Assembly: GCA_022496205.1 (NCBI GenBank)
Contig: WTXD01000005.1
Coordinates: 558,001 to 622,000 of the forward strand
Source of the DNA: Gloeopeniophorella convolvens
Taxonomy: Eukaryota; Basidiomycota; Agaricomycetes; Russulales
Direction of reading: 5' to 3'
Length of the DNA: 64,000 nt
Of this stretch, positions 11,680 to 26,594 are shown in pieces; the first letter of the stretch is position 1; each line of letters starts with the position of its first letter. The position numbers and the translations under genes were made by a program. The notes under the pieces are model-generated. The model had not been told where the DNA came from. It saw only the letters and a program-made list of their open reading frames with translations, and did not search any database.

Positions 11680-13052
11680 TTAGAAGGGCTGGTCCGCTAG
11701 AACGTCGTCAATCTTGATCACAAGCTCGTCTTTGCTCTTCAACTCTGCAGCGAAATACGCCTTCCTGCCGAATGTACCCTTCTGGCGTACGATCCGAAAC
11801 ATACGGTCCCAGGCGTCAGGCGCGTCGTCCCGCATCAGCTGGCAAACCATTTCGCGCTTCGAGTCGTACACCAGGGCGGGGAAGATCCCATCAGGCGTCA
11901 TCTGCACTTTGATTACCATCTTCTTAGGATACTCCAATGTCGCTTCTTGGAGAGTCTGGCCGCTGCGCGTCGGTTTGTTGGACACGCCAGGGAACCCAGA
12001 GAACGTGCGCCTGACGTCTTGCATTGGAACCATACTCGTGTGCATGGCCCCGTTATAGCGTGGCCTCACAGTGACGGTGTTGGAGGAAGAAAATGGCTTG
12101 CACGTGGGTTTGTGCCTCGGCCAGTCATGCCCTGATCGAGGCATCAGTGAGTTGAGGCGTGGCTAGACACATCACCACTCACTTTGGCATGCCGTAGAGC
12201 AGTAGCGCACGGTATGGCATGCCTTGCAGAACTTGAGCGATTCTTCCTGGCCGCAGACTGCGCACCCTCTCTCTCCCAGGGGCACTTGCTCTCCAGCACG
12301 ACGGCGTTCCCACTTGTGAATTATGGCTGTGACCTTCGGGCCAGCGCCATCGTAACCTTCTCGCGCAGCGAAGCCATCTGCGTCGCGGATGTCGAGGTCC
12401 GCGCCAGCCTCCATGAGTACGTCGACAGCTTTGGAATATGCGGCCTCGATTGCTCCGACAATTGGAGTCCTCCCGTAGATGTCGATGTGGTTGACGTTCG
12501 CACCGTGCTCGAGCAGCAGGCGCGTAAGATTCGCGTTGTCCTGGGGTACCATCGTGGCGTGGCTCAAAGCTGTGTACCGGCAGATGTCTGGAACGTCCGG
12601 GGGGCAACCGTTCATCAACAGGAGCTTGAGAGATGCGGCGTGGAGGTGCCGCGCGGAGAGTTCCCCTGCTGCAAACAGTCTTTGGCTTCCGATCACAAGC
12701 AGCGTCGCATATCCAAGCTTGTACGGCGTCTCAGTGCCTTCTAACGGAGGTGCTTGGCCAGTCTCTAAGGCCTGGAGAAGAGCGTCAGACATCTGTCTCG
12801 GATGAAGTGAGTGTTCCGACCCTTTTGATGCCTTGAATGTCCCCAAAGTAACATAACGCGGCGAAGTGATTCAGCAGCCCAGGGTCGCACCTGGCAGAGT
12901 CTAGTTTACAAAGTGCCAAAGCACACGACTCAGCATGTATCAAGGTGAAAGAGGAGACGTGACGCACTTGTCATGTAAAGTTCGTACAGTCTGTCACCTC
13001 CCCAGAATGTGTCAAGGACGTCATCTCCAGCCTCGGCAATAAGCTCTAGCAT
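11680..13052 (-). CDS. Ankyrin-repeat/MYND-finger protein, array member A
   Basis: Predicted 401-residue protein, apparently intact. Exons: 13052-12968, 12900-12821, 12771-12183, 12131-11680; introns of 67, 49 and 51 nt close in phase, and exon 2 (80 nt) and intron 1 (67 nt) have the same lengths as in member B. Ankyrin-type repeats occupy roughly residues 85-185 (HGANVNHIDIYGRTPIVGAI, AGADLDIRDADGFAARE). A MYND zinc finger follows: CAVCGQEESLKFC, then CHTVRYCSTAC and, after the last intron, H-x3-C in RHDWPRHKPTC. The C-terminal 150 residues are a conserved family-specific domain with no name I recognise. MYND and ankyrin modules usually mediate protein contacts; no enzyme domain is present, so the function is unknown. 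Compared with member B the first exon begins later: the aligned region upstream has lost its ATG, and translation is placed at the in-frame ATG at 13052. It differs more from the other members than they do from each other. Confidence 0.8.
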
Positions 13053-13686
13053 ATAGGGTGTGCAAACAAAGCCGCCGCCGCCAATAGAAGTCTCAGAAAA
13101 TTTCCAACGAGTTTAATCAAAGGCGTGCGCGCAGGATAGAAGATGAGTGAGGGCTAGAGGGATTTGGATGGGAAATAGTCGACAAGGACAAGATCTACAG
13201 GTGTGCGCTTTGAAAGAACAGTAGTACAAAATATCAGCTCCTAGCTTAAGGATAAGTCCATTAAGACCACATTGCGAAATAAGGGTGGTATTTACTAACC
13301 AAGTGTACTCCTAGGGCGAAATATACCAAGGGAATAAAAGGGGTGCGTGAAAAGATGGCACAAAGGTGCTATGCTATGCAGTGGCCTTCGACCGCGGATC
13401 CCCCGGCCCGGAAGCGAAAACCATATCCACTCTGTAAGGCCTAGGGCACACCAATAATCTCGCGAACCGCGACTCAATCGCGACCCCTCATGCAGCGCCT
13501 TGCGCTCCGTGCGCGCGCGTATAAGTTCGACGGCCTAGTTTGATGGGGTATCACAATAGCCACAACCCGACTACAGTAGCCTGAATTGCCACCCATTCCG
13601 TCCAAATACAGCGAAGACGATATCGTAACGCGAAGAACCGAGAAAACGCGGAATGCAAAGACTAGCCATCCCAAGTAAAGCAACCC

Positions 13687-15103
13687 CTAGAAGGGCTGTT
13701 CACCGAGAATGTCGTCCACTTTGATGACCAGTTCGTCCTCGTTCCTGAGATCCGCGGCGAAGTAAGCCTTGAGACCACTGAAGCCCTTGGTCCGCACGAT
13801 CTCCGTCATGCGATCGAAAACTTCAGGAGAATCCTCCCGGTTCAACTGACAGGCCAGCTGGCGCTTCGAGTCGTACACGAGAGAAGGCATAGTCGAAGAT
13901 GTAGGCGAAATCTGCACCTTGATGATCATCTTTTTCGGGAATTCTGACGGTAGATTGAACACACGCTGCCTGCGTTCTGAGGCGGCTGGACGGAACCCTG
14001 TGACCAAGCGTGCAATATCCTGCATAGGAACCAGAATCTGGTGCTGATCGTCAAAGCGTGGCTTGAAAGTGAGGGTGTTGGTGGGGGAGAAAGGTTTGCA
14101 CGTCTTCTTATGCTCCTTCCAATTTTCCTCTGTGACCATCATCAGTACAAAACATATGATGGTTCGGCGCACACTTACTTTGGCACTCGGGAGAGCAGTA
14201 GCGTACAACATAGCATGCAGCGCAGAACCTCTGCTTGTCCTCCTTCCCGCATACGCTGCAACCTTGTTCGCCCAGGAGGGCTTGCTCTCCAGCACGGCGA
14301 CGCTCCCACTTGCGAATGACAGCGGCGACCTTTGGGCCGGCCTTGTCGGAGATCTTCCGCGGGACCCACTGGTCGCCGTCCTTGATGTCCAGGCTGGCTC
14401 CGCCTTCCATCAGGACGTCCACCGCCTTCGAATGCGCGGCCATGATTGCGCCGCTGACCGCGACCATCCCAAGTATATCCTGGTGGTTCACGTCTGCGCC
14501 ATGTTGAATAAGAATGCGGGCCACGTCCGCATTATCTTGAGGAATAGTCGAGGCGTGTGCCAAAGCTGTGTATCTGCAGATGTCCTCGACGTCCGGCGGG
14601 CAGCCGCTCATGAGCAAGAATTTGAGGGTCGCAGCATGTAGGGGTTTGGGGCCACCACCGTGCTGTGATATCCTCTGGCTTCCGCTCGCGACCAACGTCG
14701 CGTACCCGAATCGGAACGGCGTCTCAGTATTCGAGAGTTGAGGTGCCTCGCCGTTCTTAACAGCCTACGCGGTGCGCCCTGAGATCAACGAGCCAGGAGG
14801 ACAGACAGGAAATCTACAACCTTCATCACACCTTCAAGGTGCCCAAAATAGCACATCATAGCGAATGGATTGAGCAACAAAGGGTTGAATTCAAGAGTGC
14901 CTACTCGCAGGTATCCGATGCACGGCCTCTTATCAGACACATCACGGAGAAATGGGAGTTAACGTACACTCTTGATAAATCTTACGAAGTTCTTGCCCTC
15001 CTCCCTTGAACGATGACAGGAATCCGTCCCCAGCCCTTGCTATCAGGGTAGCCATTCGCGGGGGTACAGAAAGACCAGCGCTCCCCATAGTGAAATTCGA
15101 CAT
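13687..15103 (-). CDS. Ankyrin-repeat/MYND-finger protein, array member B
   Basis: Predicted 414-residue protein and the cleanest member of the array. Exons: 15103-14968, 14900-14821, 14764-14179, 14129-13687 (introns 67, 56, 49 nt; all phases close). Order of parts: N-terminal MSNFTMGSAGLSVPP segment, ankyrin repeats (HGADVNHQDILGMVAVSGAI, GGASLDIKDGDQW), linker ending RKWERRRAGE, MYND finger with CSVCGKEDKQRFC, CYVVRYCSPEC and the final H-x3-C in WKEHKKTC, then the family C-terminal domain ending DDILGEQPF. No signal peptide, membrane helix or catalytic motif is visible. Like member A its job is unknown; MYND fingers bind proline-rich partners in other proteins. It is the probable parent, or a sister, of the two broken copies upstream in the array. 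Confidence 0.85.
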
Positions 15104-15719
15104 GGCTGAATCTTGCAGAGATATCGTCAGGAACGCGCGGAATTGAGTGATGGAATTGCTGGTTTGTAAAGGTAAATTAAGAGAAGAAGCGCGGTGGCAG
15201 CTTTTATGACTGCGACTCACGTGCAGAAAATGGGGAAAGTGTCACGATGCCGCGGACGATCGAGCTTGTGGTTTGTGGCCCGGCGTGGCCCTCGGTTCAT
15301 TTGAGGTAGGCTTTATTGACCGAGAGCCAGGTGATAACCTATGCCCCGCGCAGACGGGACAAGCTTTGCGATAAAAACATTTGAAGGAGTTTTGATATAG
15401 CGCGCGGGGAAAGGAATGCTCAAACAAGTGCTGCAGTACACGGAGGTTGCTTGCTGAGTCGAGAAAGAGAGGCGGATGTAGAATTACGTGATATGTGCGC
15501 TTCGTGATCGATATCCTCACTGACCTCATTGCGCACTACATCTCGGTTGCTGACGTCATCGCGATCCCACAGAGGACCTTTGGCAATGCAATATTGTGCG
15601 GCGTGTGCCATATGTATGTAGGTTCAACGGCCCATTTCTATGGTATTGCACTCTTGAAGCTTGAATATGCAGCTCAGTCATCCCAGGGAGCACAGATTCT
15701 AGACGCATTGCGCTAGCGC

Positions 15720-18130
15720 GCGCCGTGAGATACATTCAGAGGCAATTCGAGGACGCGAACATGTTCTTGTTCCACTACATAATGGACGGGGGCGGCTCAT
15801 GTAAGGTATCACAGCGGCTGCAACCCGGTTGTGTACAGTAGTCTGAATTATCACCCGTTCCATCCAGACACAGCGAAGACGACAGCGCAGCGCGAGAAAC
15901 CCGAGAGGACTGGGCATCCCAAGTCAAGCAACCCCTAGAAGGGTTGTTCAGCAAGAATGTCATCCACTTTGATTGCCAGTTCGTCCTCGCTCCTTGATTC
16001 CGCGGCGAAGTAAGCCTTGAGACCACCTAGGCCCTTCGTCCGCACAATTTCGGTCATGCGATCGAAAGCATCGGGGTCACTCTCCGGTCAATTGGCAGAC
16101 TAGCTCGTGCTTCGAGTCGTACACGAGAGAAGGCATGGTCGGGGACGTAGACGAAACCTGCACTTTGACGATCTTCTTCTTCGGGAACTGAGACGGCAGA
16201 TTGAATGCCCGTTGCTTGCGTTCCGAAGTAGCTGAACGGAATCCTATGGCTAAGCGTGCGGTCTCCTGCACGGGAACCAAAAAAGGAATCCCGAGCCGTG
16301 GATCAAAGCTGCACGGCTTGAAAGTAAGGGTATTGCTGGAAGAGAAAGGCTTGCACAACTTCTTATGCTCCTTCCAGTCGCTCTCTGGAACCATCGTCAG
16401 CGCGGAGTGTATATGTTAGCTTGACGCTTGCCTACTTTGGCACTCGGATGAACAGTAGCGCACGACGTAGCATGCGGAGCAAGATTTCATCTTTCCCTCC
16501 TTCCCGCATACGCCACATCCATCTTCACCCAGGAGGACCTCCTCCCCAGCACGCCGGCGCTCCCATTTACGAATGACAGCGGTGACCTTTGGGCCAACCT
16601 TGTGGGAGAGTTTTCGCGGGTCCCACTGGTCGCCGTCCTTGATATCAAGGTCAGCTCCTCCTTCCATCAGGACGTCCGCCACCTTGGAATGCGCGACCAT
16701 GATTGCCCCGCCGATCGGAACCGTCCATGTATGTCCTGGTGGTTCACGTTTGCACCATGTTGGATCAGAATGCGTGCTATGTCTGCATTGCCTCTGGGAA
16801 TACTTGAAGCATGTGCCAAAGCTGTGAATCTGCAGATGTCCTCGACGTCCGGCGGGCAGCCACTCATAAGCAAGAATTTGAGCGTCGCGGCGTGAAAGAG
16901 TTTGGGGCCGCCGGGGTACTGCGATGCCCTCTGACTTCCGCACACGACCAATGTCGCGTACCCGAATCGGAACGGCGTCTCAGTATCTGAGAGTCGGGGC
17001 GCCTCGCCACTCTTGACAGCCTACGCAGTGAGCCCTAAGATCAGCAAGCCCGGGGAACCAGGCAGGAAATCTACAACCTTCATCACACCTTCGAATTGCC
17101 CGAAATAGCACATCATAGCGAATGGATTGAGCAACGCTGAGTTGAACCTAAGAGTACCTAATTGCAGGTACCCGATGTACAGCCTCTTGTTAGGTGCGCT
17201 GCGGAGGAAAGGAAGTTCACGTACATTCTCGGTAAATTCTACTGAGCTCCTGCCCTCCCTCGGACCATGACAGAAGTCCGCTCCCTGCCTTTCTACTAGG
17301 GCAGCCATCTGCGGCGATACAGAAAGACCAGCGCTGCCATAGCGAGATTCGACATGATTGAGTCCCTGGATCGCGGTGGTATGCCAGGAAGGCGTGGGGT
17401 CGAACGGGATAAAAGGTAGCCTGTTAGAGTGTTGAACGAGGAAAAGAGGATGGCGAAGGCTTTCTACAACCACGATTCACGTGCAGGAAATGAGGAAGAC
17501 GGCACAATGCCGCAGGGCGCCAAGGCTCGGGACAATTGAGTCCGCGATGTGGCCTTCGATTCATTTGAGGCGAACTCTGTTGTTTGAGAGCTAGACTGAT
17601 AGGTGCCCGAAGCAATTGAGATTGACCTTGCGATGAAGACGGCCCGGACGACGAACACGAGTGTCTTGCGAGATTGCATTGTTATTCGAGAAAGAAGTAG
17701 TATAGAATTTTATATACACAATTCTTGTGGCCGCGTCTGCTTGAACTTCACGTGGACACACTGGACTGGTGACCGAGTCTCTTACTGCGTTGGCGATGGC
17801 AAGCATGTACCTCAGTTTGACAGCCTATCTCAATACTGGGAATGCGCTCTTGAGGCTGAATATGCGGCTCAGTCAGAGGGAGCACGAGTCTAAATGTATT
17901 GCGTCCCTGGCCATAGCGCGTCGCGAGACACATTCGGGGGTGCGAACATATCCTTGTACCCCTACATAATGGACGGGGGCGGCTCATGTAAGGTATCACA
18001 GCGGCGGCGATCTGGCTACGGTACTTAGTCTGAATTATTACTCGTTCCGTCCAAACGCAGCGGAGACGACAGCGTGACGCGAGATACCCGAAAATTTCAA
18101 GAAGACTAGCCATCTCAAGTCAAGCAACTC
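15720..18130. repeat. Tandem duplication unit of the ankyrin-MYND array
   Basis: Non-coding DNA is duplicated together with the genes. The stretch 15740-15934 matches 17930-18130 closely (shared words include CATAATGGACGGGGGCGGCT and AAGGTATCACAGCGGC), and a weaker match lies at 13545-13680. The repeat period between members C and D is therefore about 2.2 kb, and between B and C about 2.25 kb. The promoter-side segments match too (17472-17640 against 15220-15360). Confidence 0.8.
15935..17355 (-). pseudogene. Ankyrin-MYND array member C, disrupted
   Basis: Aligns along its whole length with member B but carries several lesions. In the first exon the codons after MSNLAM lose one base (ATGGC where B has ATGGGG), so the ATG at 17355 runs out of frame. 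The end of that exon has further differences. In the ankyrin exon one base is missing around 16725, so that the frame of HGANVNHQDIHG continues only in another frame as GGAIMVAHSK. In the last exon a shift at about 16080 turns QLTGE into a stop where B reads on. The MYND cysteines themselves (CGVCGKEGKMKSC ... CYVVRYCSSEC) are still present. Intron positions match member B. It is best called a pseudogene. Confidence 0.8.
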
Positions 18131-19554
18131 TTAGAAGGGTTGTTCAGCGAGAATGTCATCCACTTTGATGACCAGTTCGTCCTCGCTCTTGAGATCCGCA
18201 GCGAAGTAAGCCTTGAGGCCACCGAGGCCCTTTGTCTGCACGATTTCGGTCATGCGATCGAAAGCATCGGGGTCATCCTCCCGGGTCAACAGGCAGACCA
18301 GCTCGCGCTTCGAGTCGTACACGAGAGAAGGCGTGGTTGGGGATGTACGCGAGATCTGCACCTTGATGATCATCTTCTTCGGGAGCTGAGACGGCAGATT
18401 GGATACACGCAGCTTGCGTTCCGAAGTAGCTGGACGGAAACCTGTGACTGAGCGTGCAGTGTCCTGCATGGGAACCAAGACAGCAGTCCCGAGCCGTGAA
18501 TCAAAGTTGCCTGGCTTGAAAGTGATAGTATTGCTGGGAGAGAAGGGTTTGCACGACTTCTTATGCTCCTTCCATTCGCTCTCTGGAACCATCGTCAGCG
18601 CGGAGCATAAGCATATGGTAATTTGGCGCTCGCTTACTTTGGCACTCGGATGAACAGTAGCGCACGACGTAGCATGCGGAGCAAGATTTCAGCTTGCCCT
18701 CCTTCCCGCATACGCTACACCCTTTTCACCCAAGAGGGCCTCCTCCCCAGCACGGCGACGCTCCCACTTGCGAATGACAGCGGTGACCTTTGGGCCAACC
18801 TTGTGGGAGAGTTTTCGCGGGTTCCACTGGTCGCCGTCCTTGATGTCAAGGTCAGCTCCTCCTTCCATCAAGACGTCCACCGCCTTCGAATGCGCGACCA
18901 TGATTGCTCCGCTGACCGGAACCATCCCATATATATCCTGGTGGTTCACGTCTGCACCATGTTGGACCAGAATGCGTGCCATGTCCGCATTATCTTGAGG
19001 AATATTCGAGGCGTGTGCCAAAGCTGTGTATCTGCAGATGTCCTCGACGTCCGGCGGGCAGCCACTCTTGAGCAAGAATTTGAGCGTTGCAGCGTGAGAG
19101 TGTTTAGGGCCATCAGCGCGCTGAGGTACATTCTGGCTTCCGCTCACGACCAATGCCGCGTATCCGAACCGGAACGGCGTCTCAGTACCTGAGAGTCGAG
19201 GTGCCTCGCCGTTCTTGACAGCCTACGCAGTGTGCCTTGAGATCAACAAGCCGGATAACTAGGCAAGAAATTACCTTCATAACGCCTTCAAGGTGCCCAT
19301 AGAAACACATCATAGCGAATGGATTGAGCAACGATGAATCGAGTTCCAGAAGGCCTAATTGTGGGTATCCAATGCACGGCCTTCTGTCAGATGCGACGCG
19401 GAGAAGAGGGAGTTCGCGTACACTCTTGTTAAATCCTGCGAAGCTCCTGCCCTCCCTCGAACGATGACACGAATCCGCTCCCTGCCCTTGCCATCAAGGT
19501 AGCCATTTGCGGCGGTATAGAAAGACCGGCGCTACCCATAGCGAGATTCGACAT
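18131..19554 (-). pseudogene. Ankyrin-MYND array member D, recently disrupted
   Basis: Almost a full copy of member B with few lesions. The first exon starts at the ATG at 19554 (MSNLAMGSAGLSIPP) but ends in a TAA at 19429-19431, after QELRRI, where B has a TAT codon. A one-base deletion at about 18715 just before the MYND finger shifts the frame, giving VAYAGRRAS and a stop instead of CSVCGKEG. All other regions read cleanly: the ankyrin region (19153-18720), the last exon (18592 to the stop at 18131; WKEHKKSCKPF to DDILAEQPF) and the intron positions. Two independent disabling changes against otherwise preserved coding sequence suggest recent loss. Its upstream region is the one split by the insertions at 19.7-26.6 kb. 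Confidence 0.82.
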
Positions 19555-20678
19555 GTTTGCCTTGAATCGCGGTGATCTCGCCAGGAAGATATGGGGTTGT
19601 ATAAGAGAAAAGGTAGCTTGTGAATGTGGTAAACGAGGAAAGAATTTGGGTCGTGACGGTTTCCACAACCAAGGTTCACGTGCAGGAAGTGAGGAAAATG
19701 CCACAATATTGCAGGGCGCCAAGAGGACCCCTGATAATGCCGCGAGAAAGTTGGTTTGAGGTCCACCCAACGTATTCCATATATGGTAATGAGCTTGGTA
19801 ACAGGTACCGTACGGTCCACCCATGAGAGGCCTGTTTCCGACCCTGAACTTGGGTAGAAGTCCACCCATGAACACCTCCCGGACGCTCGGGAACCTCGCA
19901 CTGCGTGCACAGCAGACTTATCCTGAAGGAAAAAGGCTTAAATAAGCGAGATATATGTTGAACTTGTTTTCGCTTTTTGTCATCCGGAAAAGTGGTTATC
20001 AGAAACTTAATGACTCTCTAAGCACTCTTAAAGGGGAAGAAAGTTTCCTAATAAAGTTAACCTTCTCTCACGACTTCCCCATGCAAACATAGTTGGCAAT
20101 AAAGTCAAACAATCACCCATATTCTTCACGCTTTGACACCCAGAATGAGTGTTTTGTTTGGATTTCCGAGAAATGTCTTACCAGATGTTTATGGCTCAGG
20201 AATCTGGTAGAAAACTTTAACTTCAGGCACAGACTTTACCCCTTATCAAAAAGCTTGTAGAGAATGTTAACTTCACTAATCCTCGTTTTTCGAGATTAAA
20301 TAATAACAAGTAAGTTAAACAAATATCCAGCTTTTCGAAGCCTTTTTTCGTGAGAATAAGTCTGCTATGCACGCAGTGTCGGATGTCGGCAAGAGGTCCA
20401 CCCATGAAGCTTAAGGTCACGGGACCTCTCGGATCCCGGCTCCCACGGACCTCCGCAGACACACCGTCCGCGCTGCCACCCGAGCCACCACCTCACTCAC
20501 TGCAACCAATCCACCAATTCAAGACTCTGAGCCATGTCACTGCGGCCATCGCTATGGCTCACTTACTTTTGACCAGTGCTCAGGATCTCTAGACACACAA
20601 CATGTATTTAAGCGGACTAGTGGGTACTAATCTTATCCGCATTTTCGATCCTCTCCAGCCCCTACGCGTGCTCGTACC

Positions 20679-21386
20679 ATGACTGAAGGCCCTCAGGTCA
20701 TCGAGGATATTGCTGGAGACCTATCTGGTGACCTGGATCTGTGGATTGGCAAAGGAAAGAAGTACAAGAATGTTCCACAGTTCGTCTCCGCTGCCCTCTG
20801 CTCTCGAGTCTCTGTTCCCGAGGCAGTCCACTTGACGCTCCCATCCTCCGACCTCACCATCCTTGAGTTTATCAAATTCCCGCTCCCAAATTACATCACA
20901 TCATTTCCGTTCATCGCGCTGTCTGCATACTTTTCCAAACGCAAGCCAACGAACACTCTGCGCGCTGGATTCTGACTCATGCAATTCCCAGTGTTGACAA
21001 TGTACAAAAAGGGTCCTGGAAGAGGTGCCAAGCACTCGTGGATGTCGTCTTTGGCATAGGTCGGCACTCTATCCTTCCTGGAGGCCAACTGCTACCAGCG
21101 CATGCATGGTGATGGGCAGTTCCGACTTATGCAGTGCCCGGCCACGCGAACCACAAAATTTACCTATGTCCCTGCCCTCTCCATCCTCTGCAGGATTCCC
21201 AAGGAATCTGTCCGTCGGTCTGCCTCAGGGAACATCGTGCAATTCACTCAAACTGTATTTGTCGACATCTTCCGGGGTCTCACCACTGAGAAGGAGGCAG
21301 TCGCTGCAGCTGTCAAGAAGCTCTCAAAGCCATCAACAGGGCGGCGACTGGGCGCAGCGTATCACGAGGATGATGGTGCAGAGTAG
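20679..21386 (+). CDS. Unrecognised gene-like sequence carried by the 3000-bp element
   Basis: An ATG at 20679 opens a frame beginning MTEGPQVIEDIAGDLSGD that runs to 20975. Coding-like sequence continues in other frames: ARWILTHAIPSVDNVQKGSW and VVFGIGRHSILPGGQLLPAH (about 20955-21100), then HGDGQFRLMQCPATRTTKF to a stop at 21386, ending EKEAVAAAVKKLSKPS. Introns could join these, but I could not fix the splice sites. There is no resemblance that I can see to a hAT transposase (no BED finger, no dimerisation motif). It may be cargo of the transposon or a gene fragment captured by it. Confidence 0.35.
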
Positions 21387-21625
21387 CTGATAATGTTTTA
21401 CATAGTGTCTATCTCATTCACAGTCGTTATGCGTGATGCGGGATGCATTCACACTATTTGCGTCCAAGGGCAAGCACTTGCACATCCTCAACACAACCAC
21501 GTTCCCTCACAGTCCGAAATGCGGCCATGTCAGAGATATTGATCCTGCGGATTATTCTGTGATTTTTCCCGATTTTGGTGCCTTTTTTTACGCCATGTAG
21601 AGCTTGGAAATAGGGTCCACCCATG

Positions 21626-22581
21626 TAGGGACCAGCACGGATATGGTTGATCCGGTTGACCATCCGCGGATGAACGAAAGGGTGGTTGTGGATACGGATA
21701 TGGATAATTCCCACGGTTCGTGGGTCGGATGACGGATTCCGTGGATTGCTAGCCTGCCGATTCTTACCGGTGCCCGTCTCACCGCTGTGTACTACCCATT
21801 CTCTCCTACTGTCTTTTGCTTGCGTGCACATTCATGGTACGCTCTCTCACCATACAAACTCTTCACTCACACTAATTGGATGCGCAACACTGGGCCCAGA
21901 TCCCTCATTTCTTCTGCTACCTCACACTCTCGACGCCCACAAGATCCCGACTCCGATCTCCACCCCCGCCGCCGCCGTCTCTACCCATCTCTACTACTAG
22001 CTGCGAAAGGAGGATGAATAGCAATTGTATGGCTGAAGTGTGGGTCTGTGGGATCCAGATGTTATAGGTGTGTCTCTGTTGTTGACCAGCTGCCTCGGAC
22101 ACCTCTGCTTTGCCTCTGCTCGTCGAGCCCTCAGATTCTGCTTGAAATTTGTACGTGTGGGAATCTGCTGTAGCGCATAATCATCTTGATATATCCATGT
22201 CACCCAAGTACTTGTAGCACCCGGTCCAACTTCGATATCCACCATACACTCTCATTGCGCACTGTGCAGCCCTCCCTCTTTCGAGCTCAGGGGGCTCTCA
22301 GGTCTCGGGGTAGTACACCAATACTCTCATACATAGATGATCGCATCGCCATGTTCTCGAATTGAGTTGTAGATAATGAACAATCCAGATACATGTCTTG
22401 CATCGTGAAACCTGCATACGGAATGACTGCCCGGTCTGCTTGCCAGACCCGGCCCGCCACTCCGAAGCCATCCGTGGTTCTATCCACCATCCGGCGGATG
22501 GGAATCCGTGGATAGCGGAGTTTTAATTCATCCGCGGATCTGTACCCGGATGACATCCGGATACAACCGTGCTGGTCCCTA
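21626..22581. mobile_element. 956-bp nested hAT-like element (MITE-type)
   Basis: The ends are the perfect 15-bp inverted repeat TAGGGACCAGCACGG (21626-21640 and 22567-22581). Flanks are the direct 8-bp duplication CACCCATG (21618-21625 and 22582-22589). The subterminal regions are rich in copies of TCCGCGGATG and TCCGTGGAT in both orientations. No coding sequence is supported. It inserted into one of the GGTCCACCCATG repeats of the larger 3000-bp element and is therefore younger than that element. Confidence 0.9.
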
Positions 22582-22731
22582 CACCCATGGGACGCGCGGG
22601 TCGGGATGTTGGTGATAAGGTCCACCCACCGAGTGCCCGATTTGGTAAGCGCCGGTCCACCCATCAGGACCGAAATTGGGCCAAATTTCTTACCAACATC
22701 GTAGCGGTATTATCAGGGGTCCTGCGCCAAG

Positions 22732-22829
22732 GCTCGGGACAATTGAGTCGCGGTGTGGCCTTACGTAGGTTCGTTTGAGGTGGGCTCTATTGAAATGAGA
22801 GCTGAATAAATCCGTTCCCGGAGCAATTG
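22732..22829 (-). promoter_or_regulatory. Displaced upstream segment of array member D, part 1
   Basis: This stretch continues, without a gap, the sequence broken at 19723. It matches 17525-17616, the region upstream of pseudogene C (GGCTCGGGACAATTGAGT, TTTGAGG and GAGCAATTG are shared). It shows that the upstream region of member D once ran directly on from 19723. Confidence 0.75.
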
Positions 22830-23086
22830 CATCTGAAAAAAGACTCATGGATTGCGCCGGGTTACGCCGACCAGCTGAGCACTGAAATAGGCCGAAATAG
22901 GCCGCTGTTGGGTTAGAGCCGGTTGTAACCCTGCAAAACCTTATGTAACCCCGAATTGAGCCTCGCACGGCATAACCGTGCTTTCATGTCGCTCTTATCA
23001 CGGTTGTGATGGGTTGTGACCGGATTGCATCCCCATTATAATGTAACTACGGGACAATTATACAATTCTCTCATACTTCTCAAGGA

Positions 23087-23276
23087 TGTGTTCTAAGGAC
23101 ATACTGTCCCCACTACCACAAAGTAGTGATTGAGCCTTGAGACTTATATACACCAAGCAGCAGTACTTCAAGCTCAAGCTTCAAGCATCACACCGGGTGG
23201 CCAGCCAGATAGCCATCAACAAGACAGATATTGATATTGAATTATACCGATCAACTAGATACTACATTTTGTTACA
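23087..23276 (+). repeat. Possible retrotransposon LTR with short gag-like start
   Basis: The stretch begins TGTGTTCTAAGGACATAC and ends ...TGTTACA, that is TG...CA, about 190 bp. It is followed at 23292 by an ATG opening a short frame (MFEINPDPNSAPVQSTDPRS) of the kind seen at the start of some copia-like gag genes. No second LTR, primer-binding site, protease or reverse transcriptase is visible nearby. The call rests on general appearance only. Confidence 0.3.
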
Positions 23277-23459
23277 CTTAATCAGTCTCAGTATGTTCGA
23301 AATCAACCCTGACCCTAACTCAGCACCAGTGCAGTCTACTGACCCCCGTAGTGCTCAAAAGCCTCTCGAGTCACAAACCGGTTCTGCCCGTGCAGGTCCC
23401 GGAGGCACACTCCCGCATGCCGTTGGAACGACAAATACAACAGGTGCGAGCACGCGGGT

Positions 23460-24348
23460 TTGAACACAAGCTGCATCCCGCTGCGGTCAGCACAACACAG
23501 CAGAGCACCCTGTGGCGTGCGGCGCACCTGTACCATACCTGCGCGCACGTCACCCACCCACGCGACAGGCCACGCGCCCGTGTCATCGTTAGACAGCGCG
23601 ACATTCACCGCGAGCAACTTCTTTCCCGCGCCACCGGTGCTGTACGCTGTGTAGAACACGAGCACCGCGAAAATCCCTGTGCAGAGCCAGCATCAGCGCA
23701 GGCACAGGCACAAGAGAACGGGCATACGTGGTGCACCTTTGAGCTCGTCCTTGCTCTTCCGCAACGGTGTCCTCGCGAGGTGCTTGCCTATACCTGGGCG
23801 CGTGAGGTTGAACACCTCGACCGTACCCTTGAAGCTCGAGTATGGCCTACATACATAGCATAGTGTCAGCACCGCCCTTCATTCAGTGCGCGGCACGCAC
23901 CGCTCCGCCGACATGTTGAATGCGATGCTGTGTGGCGCGACGGGCCGCTCGCAGTGGTCGACAATGCGGTATGATGTGCACAGCTGCACGCGGGTGCGCC
24001 AGCAGCAGGCCGGGGCAATGGAAGGGAAAAAGTGAGCACACCCTGCCGTCCATGACATCGAGTAAGTGAGCGCACGGTGCATCGCACACAGATGCGATGA
24101 GACAAAACGAGACCAGGCCGTGAGTGTGCAATGTAAGACCTAAGGATGACAGAGGCTAATGATAGACCTACAGTGCAAACGGGTATTAGCTCCATCAGGG
24201 GTTTGGGGACGAGCACACATACCTCGAATGCAATAGTAGCCCGACTGCACACTGGTGGCATAGCATACCTACACATGACGGTTACCAGGCCTGTGACGAC
24301 GCTGTCTACCTTGGAATTCACGTTCCAGTTCATAACAAAGCAACTCAC
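23460..24348 (-). CDS. Unrecognised multi-exon gene or gene fragment
   Basis: Several minus-strand blocks have clean splice signals between them. Reading downward: MNWNVNSKVDSVVTGLV (about 24330), then PACCWRTRVQLCTSYRIVDH and FNMSAER (about 24010-23910). A GTGCGT...TAG intron then joins PYSSFKGTVEVFNLTRPGIG and HLARTPLRKSKDELK (23850-23735), and a second intron joins IFAVLVFYTAYSTGGAGKKL and VALSNDDTGAWPVAWVGDV (23680-23555). I recognise no family. The hydrophobic segments suggest a membrane or secreted protein. The downstream end appears to run into the retrotransposon-like sequence near 23460, so it may be truncated. It lies within the 3.8-kb insertion. Confidence 0.35.
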
Positions 24349-24914
24349 GACTCATGAGAAAGCACATTACATACGGCGTGCCACCGCAGACGCTGCGCAG
24401 TCTTCACTGTGTGGCCTATACATGCACCCCTGGCACTGTGTAGAGGAGGTTATGCAGCGAGGAAGTGAGCAGACGAAAACACCGTACGCCACACCGTGAA
24501 AGTTGACGCTGCGATCGACAAATTGTATGCCATTCGTGGTCACAATATGGTCTAGGTGGTGCAGCAGGAATACCTTTGGGTCTACGTGTTCCTGTGAGGG
24601 ATAGCAAGCCGGGGGATTGCGGCTGTGATATTAAGTCAGTACGTACCTAAATCTGGCCAGTCTTGTCTCTCGTGGATGTAGCGTGGGGGCAGGGAGCGTT
24701 GGAGAGAGCGGGGGACGAACGGTTGAGGGGAAAGAATTGGAGAAAGGGATACCGTCGACGTTAGTCTCCTTAAGCAGACCTTAGTAACGGAAGATAGTCA
24801 TTCCGTTATAAGCCGTCGACGTGGCAATACGCATGAGGTCATGCCATGCCGGGTTCTGCCGGGTAGACTACGTAATGTTACGTAGGGGTAGCGAGTGAAA
24901 AAAAAAGGGAGGCA

Positions 24915-24987
24915 TGACAGACGGCGAGATTCGAACCGAAGGCCTCGGACTTCGAAATAATAAGTATTACCATTGCACCACGAACAC
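24915..24987 (-). tRNA. tRNA-like sequence, probably degenerate
   Basis: The minus strand holds a D-arm-like GTGGTGCAATGGTAATAC followed 40 nt later by a T-loop-like GGTTCGAATC. The middle can form only a short stem (ACTT/AAGT), the T-stem does not pair properly, and no matching acceptor stem was found. The anticodon cannot be assigned with confidence. It is likely a tRNA relic or a tRNA-derived repeat. Confidence 0.3.
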
Positions 24988-26594
24988 TATAGAAATAGAA
25001 GCAACAAACCCTTTATATCAACGCGCTCAAGATCCAGAATCGACTTCGTTATTCTTGACACTGTCACGTCTCAACCATGACTTGCTGCTCTTCACCTTTT
25101 CCCTCACCGTCTGTGTCAGTCCCTGCCATATTCTGCCGTTCTCGCTCTCGCCGAAACACACTTGCGGGTCTCACCCCTGGCATACACCTCCGCGTTCCTC
25201 CCACACCACTGCCACTGTCATTGTCCCATCCCCCTTCTGTTACTGTGCCGACTCAGTTGTTCGCATGCCGAATTGCTAGTGTGCCTCCAGTATCCCCTGC
25301 ATTCCCGAGTTGCTTCCACGCCCCATCCCACCTGCGCTGTCGGTACCTGTCTTGTGTCTGCAACCACTCTGTATCCCTCAGTGCACCATCCGCACCACAT
25401 TCCGCACCACTCCCTCCTTGTTCACTCTGTCTGCTGTAGACTGGGAGCGCCGGCAAGAGATCTCCATTTGAGGATAGCGAGTCGGTGTGCGCGTGGGGCG
25501 CTCGGGATGTAGAAAAAACGATGCGTTCATCTTGTGTATCAGTGTGTGGCTAATGCACCGACTCTATCCCTCCTCCATGATATCCTCTGTACTCTCTCCC
25601 TTAGCCTCCCTTCCGCCGTCACCGTCGCCCCCGTCCTCGCTCGCGCTGCACCCGCACCCGCCACCGCTGTCCTCATGCGTGGCACGTCCGTGGCGCGTTC
25701 AAGTGCACGGAGCTTGGAGGCCCGCGCGCTGCTAAGCCGGCGGGCTCTTGCCGAGGACGAGCTCTGCGAAGAGCGCGCAGTCCAGTGCCGACGTCGCCAC
25801 CCCGAGCAGGATGTCGTGCGCGCCGCGGTGCTCGTCTCAAGCCTCGGGGAGACGCTCACGGCGGGGCGCAGCAGTGGGCGTGTGCAGGGCTGCTCGCGGG
25901 CACCGACGTGCCGCCGTCCCTCGTGCTGATGATTAGGCGTCGGGTGGCGGCACCTCAAAAAAGTCGAATCGTCTTGCGGGCAGCGTGCAGGCGCGCAGGC
26001 TGGTGACGACGATCTGCGGGCTCGCACTGCCCAGTATCGGCGCCCGCACGATCCGAGTGGTGTGCATTTGCGGACCGCGCGCCCTCGTGTGGCACATCTC
26101 TGCAGCGAGCACGCGCCGCAATTAAGCAAAAATGTACATATACCTTCAACGATGGTCGGAAATACACTAGTACAACCCGATTAATTGTGGTGCGCGCGAA
26201 CACGGTGGGACCCCAGTTGGTCGCCAGTCGATGCTTGCGAGGTCCTTACATGCAGCTCTGACACCTCGAAAAGGTTCATAGAATGAGGTCTACCTTATGA
26301 TCATTTGTAGTTTGGTTGTAACCTGGTGCAAGGTTTTGCAGAGTTGAAGCCAGTTTCCAATCACATTGGACTGAGCATATAAGCAGGCTATAATCTCGGA
26401 CAATATTTCGGGGTTTCACAAGGGCGGAAACCTGGTACAAGCTACGCAAAGGATTCTAATCAGCTTGTTATCCATTGCCACTGCAACACAAGGGACTTGC
26501 AAGTCCGGACAATACCGGAACGGTTTGCAAATGGCCGGAACCGCGCGGAACCTCCGAAACTCGGGGCGATGCGCGCGTCGGATCCCTGATGTGG

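Follow-up and report, generated by a model that had tools for sequence, protein, structure and literature searches.

The 64,000-nt stretch of the genome of Gloeopeniophorella convolvens (Agaricomycetes, Russulales) analysed here (the window) holds a minus-strand tandem array of ankyrin-repeat/MYND-finger genes (about 11680–19300), one unit of which is interrupted, and the question raised by this locus is what kind of mobile element entered it. Ankyrin/MYND-finger matches were obtained for two of the three array frames scanned, and the repeat units, to which both the interrupted and the empty-site unit belong, are 67–84% identical. Alignment of the units pairs 17837–19723 with 15641–17524 to the left of the element (82% identity) and 22724–22829 with 17517–17618 to its right (77%); the two alignments break and resume exactly at the element borders and overlap by 8 bp alone, namely the single GCGCCAAG of the paralogous site (Table 1). 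This octamer is present five times in the window versus 3.08 expected and is not rare by itself, thus the argument for insertion is carried by its position together with the inverted ends. The terminal arms are 84% identical across 32 nt, and the end sequence AGGACCCCTGATAATRCCGC (≤3 mismatches) matched just two sites in the window, 19724–19743 (+) and 22704–22723 (−), and none in 100 shuffles. The exact DNA-transposon insertion, the 8-bp duplication and the internal empty-site control proposed in an earlier note on this sequence were confirmed. The same note described one 3000-bp element; its boundaries stand, but it is not a single unit, as later nested insertions account for 483 bp and 964 bp of it (each taken with its duplication), without which the outer element, now 3000 bp, measures 1553 bp.

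Table 1. Coordinates of the features in the window
Feature	Position	Strand	Remark
Outer element, very probably a non-autonomous P-superfamily-type transposon	19724–22723	+	orientation from gene remnant
Left terminal inverted repeat, 32 nt	19724–19755	+	
Right terminal inverted repeat, 32 nt	22692–22723	−	
Target site duplication GCGCCAAG, 8 bp, left copy	19716–19723	.	
Target site duplication GCGCCAAG, 8 bp, right copy	22724–22731	.	
Paralogous empty site, single GCGCCAAG	17517–17524	.	neighbouring repeat unit
Left subterminal repeats GTCCACCCA	19761–19868	+	at 19761, 19815, 19860
Fourth left GTCCACCCA	20396–20404	+	just past nested MITE
Right subterminal repeats GTCCACCCA	21615–22663	+	at 21615, 22620, 22655; orientation as left ones
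N-terminus remnant of Ulp1-transposase protein, open frame	20631–20972	+	residues 3–98 of P0121
C-terminus remnant, open-frame piece	20976–21056	+	residues 1576–1600 of P0121
C-terminus remnant, open-frame piece	21060–21383	+	residues 1604–1710 of P0121
Nested CACTG-ended MITE, 480 bp	19899–20378	.	duplication TCG (19896–19898 / 20379–20381); absent from C82
Nested hAT-like element, 956 bp	21626–22581	.	15-nt perfect inverted ends TAGGGACCAGCACGG
Its target duplication CACCCATG, 8 bp, left	21618–21625	.	
Its target duplication CACCCATG, 8 bp, right	22582–22589	.	

In the whole genome the end sequence gave 21 matches (≤3 mismatches), including the two of the window, versus 2 in a reversed control. 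Fifteen matched regions were examined, allowing up to 6 mismatches for end recognition; both ends were recognised in eight, and the seven regions with a single end (C399, C17, C92, C349, C354, C371, and C334) were left out of the duplication count. The two-ended copies, nine with the window included, are the window element (3000 bp), C82 (2518 bp), C8 (6611 bp), C201 and C323 (2127 bp), C90, C279, and C343 (959 bp), and C361 (1952 bp). Perfect 8-bp duplications flank eight of them with seven distinct sequences, the window and C82 having one sequence in common, and C201 is the sole copy without a duplication. The 2127-bp copies C201 (L028) and C323 (L029) are 99.9% identical and the duplication is found in C323 only; the C201 copy may be rearranged or misassembled. 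The 959-bp copies (C90:165445–166403, C279:20172–21130, and C343:103458–104416) carry three different 8-bp duplications, and C90 shares 99.9% identity with C279 and 100% with C343. Such near-identity at three separate targets suggests recent movement, and the 959-bp elements, whose ends resemble those of the family, are read as a MITE that was active recently.

The best transposase relative was located between like ends on the 57,790-bp contig C8, where the minus-strand frames encode 433, 410, 650, 244, and 216 aa. The 433-aa frame matched the Ulp1 peptidase (PF02902, E 1.3e-5), and the 650-aa frame had 181 relatives at E ≤0.001 among the 7994 candidates scored; the named ones among the best 120 of these 181 are Agaricomycetes. 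The earlier note had named as support a family with the same ends and 8-bp duplications that includes one copy with a hAT transposase: relatives with like ends, their duplications and a transposase between the ends (C8) were all found, but by its predicted fold and motifs the transposase looks P-type rather than hAT, as described below. Further transposase copies of the host are interrupted by stops (C19, C399, and C221) or are open frames (C312 and C370, 46–47% identical); the end pattern (≤3 mismatches) had no match on C19, C221, C312, and C370 and marked one end on C399.

A profile search with the transposase family yielded 276 relatives, and at least 52 relatives reach 1400 aa or more. A precomputed PF02902 match was counted by eye for 21 of these 52 long relatives; in our search of five, PF02902 was above the cut-off in P0129, P0144, and P0172 and below it in P0122 (E 0.24), and no Ulp1 match was obtained in P0121, a 1710-aa Lactarius protein. 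Some long relatives without a recognisable protease, such as P0121, may reflect a gene-model fault or real loss. Both active-site motifs of the protease were recognised by a strict text pattern in just 7 of the 52; the C2HC finger pattern [HC]xxC-x(n)-H-x(n)-C was present in 45 (40 if the DDTKL motif upstream of the core is also required). No THAP domain was detected in five long relatives at E ≤1. The full form would encode one long protein that starts with a cysteine protease of the Ulp1 type (C48), followed by a C2HC zinc finger, a putative helix-turn-helix, an RNase H-fold transposase with a P-type insertion domain, and a tail. Among the database records, the transposase relative P0001 is BC834DRAFT_797740 of G. 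convolvens itself, and P0148 (Pleurotus ostreatus) is recorded as ‘Methionine--tRNA ligase, mitochondrial’, a name that probably stems from a fused gene model or misannotation.

The transposase part is predicted to fold like RNase H and to carry a large helical insertion, the insertion domain typical of the P element, the classic fruit-fly transposon. The fold match to P-superfamily structures covers 398–406 aligned residues at about 13% structural sequence identity, and in the fold ranking P-type structures come first with a Z gap of about 13 above the next family; in one Foldseek run RAG1 was also matched (E 6.4e-4). By its predicted fold, the transposase is therefore of P type. The earlier note had placed the outer element in the hAT superfamily, for which 8-bp duplications are usual too (PMC12730594), and a TAGGG-ended hAT-like element does sit inside it. 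Hermes, however, ranks far from the outer-family transposase in the fold search, the transposase of the C8 relative has the predicted P-element fold and signature, and the hAT-like element is confined to the nested interval 21626–22581; we regard a hAT identity of the outer element as highly improbable and discarded it on the fold ranking. The chance that the element is a KDZ (Zisupton-like) transposon seems slimmer still, even though Zisupton, which occurs in Agaricomycetes, likewise leaves duplications of 8 bp (PMC12730594). No KDZ family match was obtained in 42 relatives at E ≤1 and the predicted fold is P-type; KDZ was set aside on these indirect grounds, no KDZ structure having been identified among the fold-search rows.

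The catalytic signature is well conserved in the 42 rows compared. The second D of the DDE residues (D316) is present in all 42 and E547 in 41, and the D(2)H motif is represented by D369 (41/42) and H372 (40/42). The first catalytic D was read by eye from VDDTKL in strand 201–210, its column being left uncounted, and D369 follows strand 362–368, which is a candidate for beta5. Candidates for the GTP-binding residues of the insertion domain are D462 and E544, both of which are present in 40 of the 42 rows. By a strict text pattern, the three transposase motifs were found in 37 of the 52 long relatives. The Pfam HTH family PF12017 matched 4 of the 42 members, the best match covering about half the profile; three of these matches were below the cut-off and only that of P0095 was above it. 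PF12017 had no match in the whole host genome, where the controls likewise had none, which makes this search uninformative. Given these HTH results, and as the family profile also found no match among PDB chain sequences at E ≤1, P membership rests on the predicted fold plus the motifs. An unlikely, though not negligible, alternative is a distinct superfamily sister to P, with the same fold, separate end recognition, no THAP, and possibly no GTP use. In its favour, no similarity to P transposases of solved structure was detected at the sequence level, and an Ulp1 domain and C2HC finger stand in place of the animal THAP; the P0095 match to the HTH family, the D(2)H motif, the 8-bp duplications, and the Z gap to the next family speak against it.

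The window copy contains neither the catalytic core nor the protease, in agreement with the earlier view that it is non-autonomous, but its gene-like sequence, which had been regarded as of unknown origin, proved to be the two terminal portions of the Ulp1-transposase gene of this same family, and host-gene capture was ruled out on this basis. The three remnant pieces share one common reading frame with stops between them, and about 1500 codons are gone at a single deletion junction at about 20958–20976. When compared with 25 long relatives (E ≤0.01), the pieces matched 21, 12, and 7 of them, respectively; the third matching just seven indicates that the tail is kept mainly among closer relatives. 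DNA similarity between the window element and C8 is limited to 41 bp, so C8 is not identifiable as the direct parent. Considering the fold, the motifs and this remnant, we think it very probable that the outer element is non-autonomous and descends, through internal deletion, from a mushroom lineage of P-element-superfamily DNA transposons. Besides the short DNA match to C8 and the weak points of sequence-based placement given above, the RAG1 match, the missing THAP, the Ulp1 results for P0121 and P0122, the copy C201 without a duplication and the seven regions with a single recognised end count against this reading. In such a lineage the transposase would bind the direct subterminal repeats and the inverted ends, excise the element and insert it through an 8-bp staggered cut, and for the window copy a full-length relative would have supplied this activity in trans.

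The putative binding sites are the subterminal repeats. All seven occurrences of GTCCACCCA in the window lie within the element and share the same strand (the expected number is 0.66, and no shuffle out of 100 gave as many as seven), and those at the right end are split by the nested hAT-like element. Related TCCACC/TCTACC motifs, picked by eye, were found in the outermost 300 bp or so of C361, C323, and C8, on one strand each, the shuffle control covering the window only. Where the gene direction is known (window, C8, and C323), the strand of the repeats is the coding strand. The 959-bp copies had no TCCACC/TCTACC-type subterminal repeats, and in the window the TCTACC variant appears once on the opposite strand, near the left end.

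The Drosophila P element and zebrafish Pdre2/THAP9 likewise combine an RNase H fold interrupted by a large helical insertion with the D(2)H motif and a preceding HTH region, the latter putative in the mushroom family, and 8-bp duplications are common to them and the mushroom family; the seven target sites are too few to judge a palindrome preference as in P, and none is claimed. Zebrafish P elements are also reported to include internally deleted copies, as seen here (PMC7776569). Unlike the P element and THAP9, the mushroom family shows an Ulp1 protease and a C2HC finger and no THAP was seen, its ends read AGG(A/C)CCCC, and its subterminal repeats, where found, have one orientation; THAP domains are reported to be absent from fungi (PMC7776569). 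With hAT elements (Hermes, Ac) the family shares the 8-bp duplications, but its transposase is far from Hermes in fold, and with the Zisupton/KDZ elements of fungi it has the duplications and the occurrence in Agaricomycetes in common (PMC12730594), but the 42 relatives gave no match to a KDZ profile. We tentatively propose, as a possibility somewhat short of an even chance, that mushrooms hold a distinct P-type lineage in which Ulp1 fused to the transposase replaces the animal THAP architecture; the protease may serve to process the long protein or to remove SUMO from donor-site silencing factors, and the direct subterminal sites would give the two ends different identities. Among the titles and abstract openings listed in literature searches, none dealt with P-type elements of Agaricomycetes; Repbase and most subscription papers lie outside this scope and earlier cataloguing is possible. 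As far as these searches can tell, the Ulp1-fused, THAP-less P-type lineage of mushrooms is new, while the window copy by itself is ordinary. The family has escaped notice for two reasons: general profiles scarcely detect it, and the annotation of some long copies covers their protease part only (‘Ubiquitin-like protease family’). A P-type family in many Agaricomycetes would widen the known reach of P-type transposition, and its members would be natural variants for asking which parts, such as the GTP pocket and THAP, are essential.

The later history of the locus can be read from the nested insertions and from C82, a second assembled copy of the locus (99.6% identity over 2923 bp and 99.4% over 2452 bp). 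C82 shares the flanks and the outer duplication with the window but lacks 19899–20378 and has a single TCG there; it also lacks 22830–26591 and resumes at 26592 (99.8% over 2631 bp). Being collinear, without 22830–26591 and continuing at 26592, C82 is most likely the other haplotype, as judged from the assembled sequences. The 3762-bp segment 22830–26591, present in the window and absent from the otherwise collinear C82, has no clear terminal inverted repeat or duplication, apart from a possible 2-bp TG with ends CATC/GATG. After the outer insertion, the hAT-like element would have jumped into the outer element, and the CACTG-ended MITE would have entered one of the two assembled copies. The window records three layers of insertion, two of which have an empty site as control. 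The nested hAT-like element has both an 8-bp duplication and TAGGG-type inverted ends, a hAT-like motif, and as it contains no transposase, its superfamily is assigned by the ends only. Its duplication CACCCATG overlaps one subterminal repeat of the outer element. Exact ends of the TAGGGACCAGCACGG type were found in the genome in C82 and C350 only, and inexact ones (≤2 mismatches) were at chance level (71 vs. 77 in the reversed control). The nested MITE shows both CACTG ends and a 3-bp duplication, the features that define CACTA/CMC elements, and its end sequence had 39 genome matches per strand (≤2 mismatches) and none in the reversed control. These matches are mostly paired about 480 bp apart when inspected by eye, and the MITE family is very uniform.
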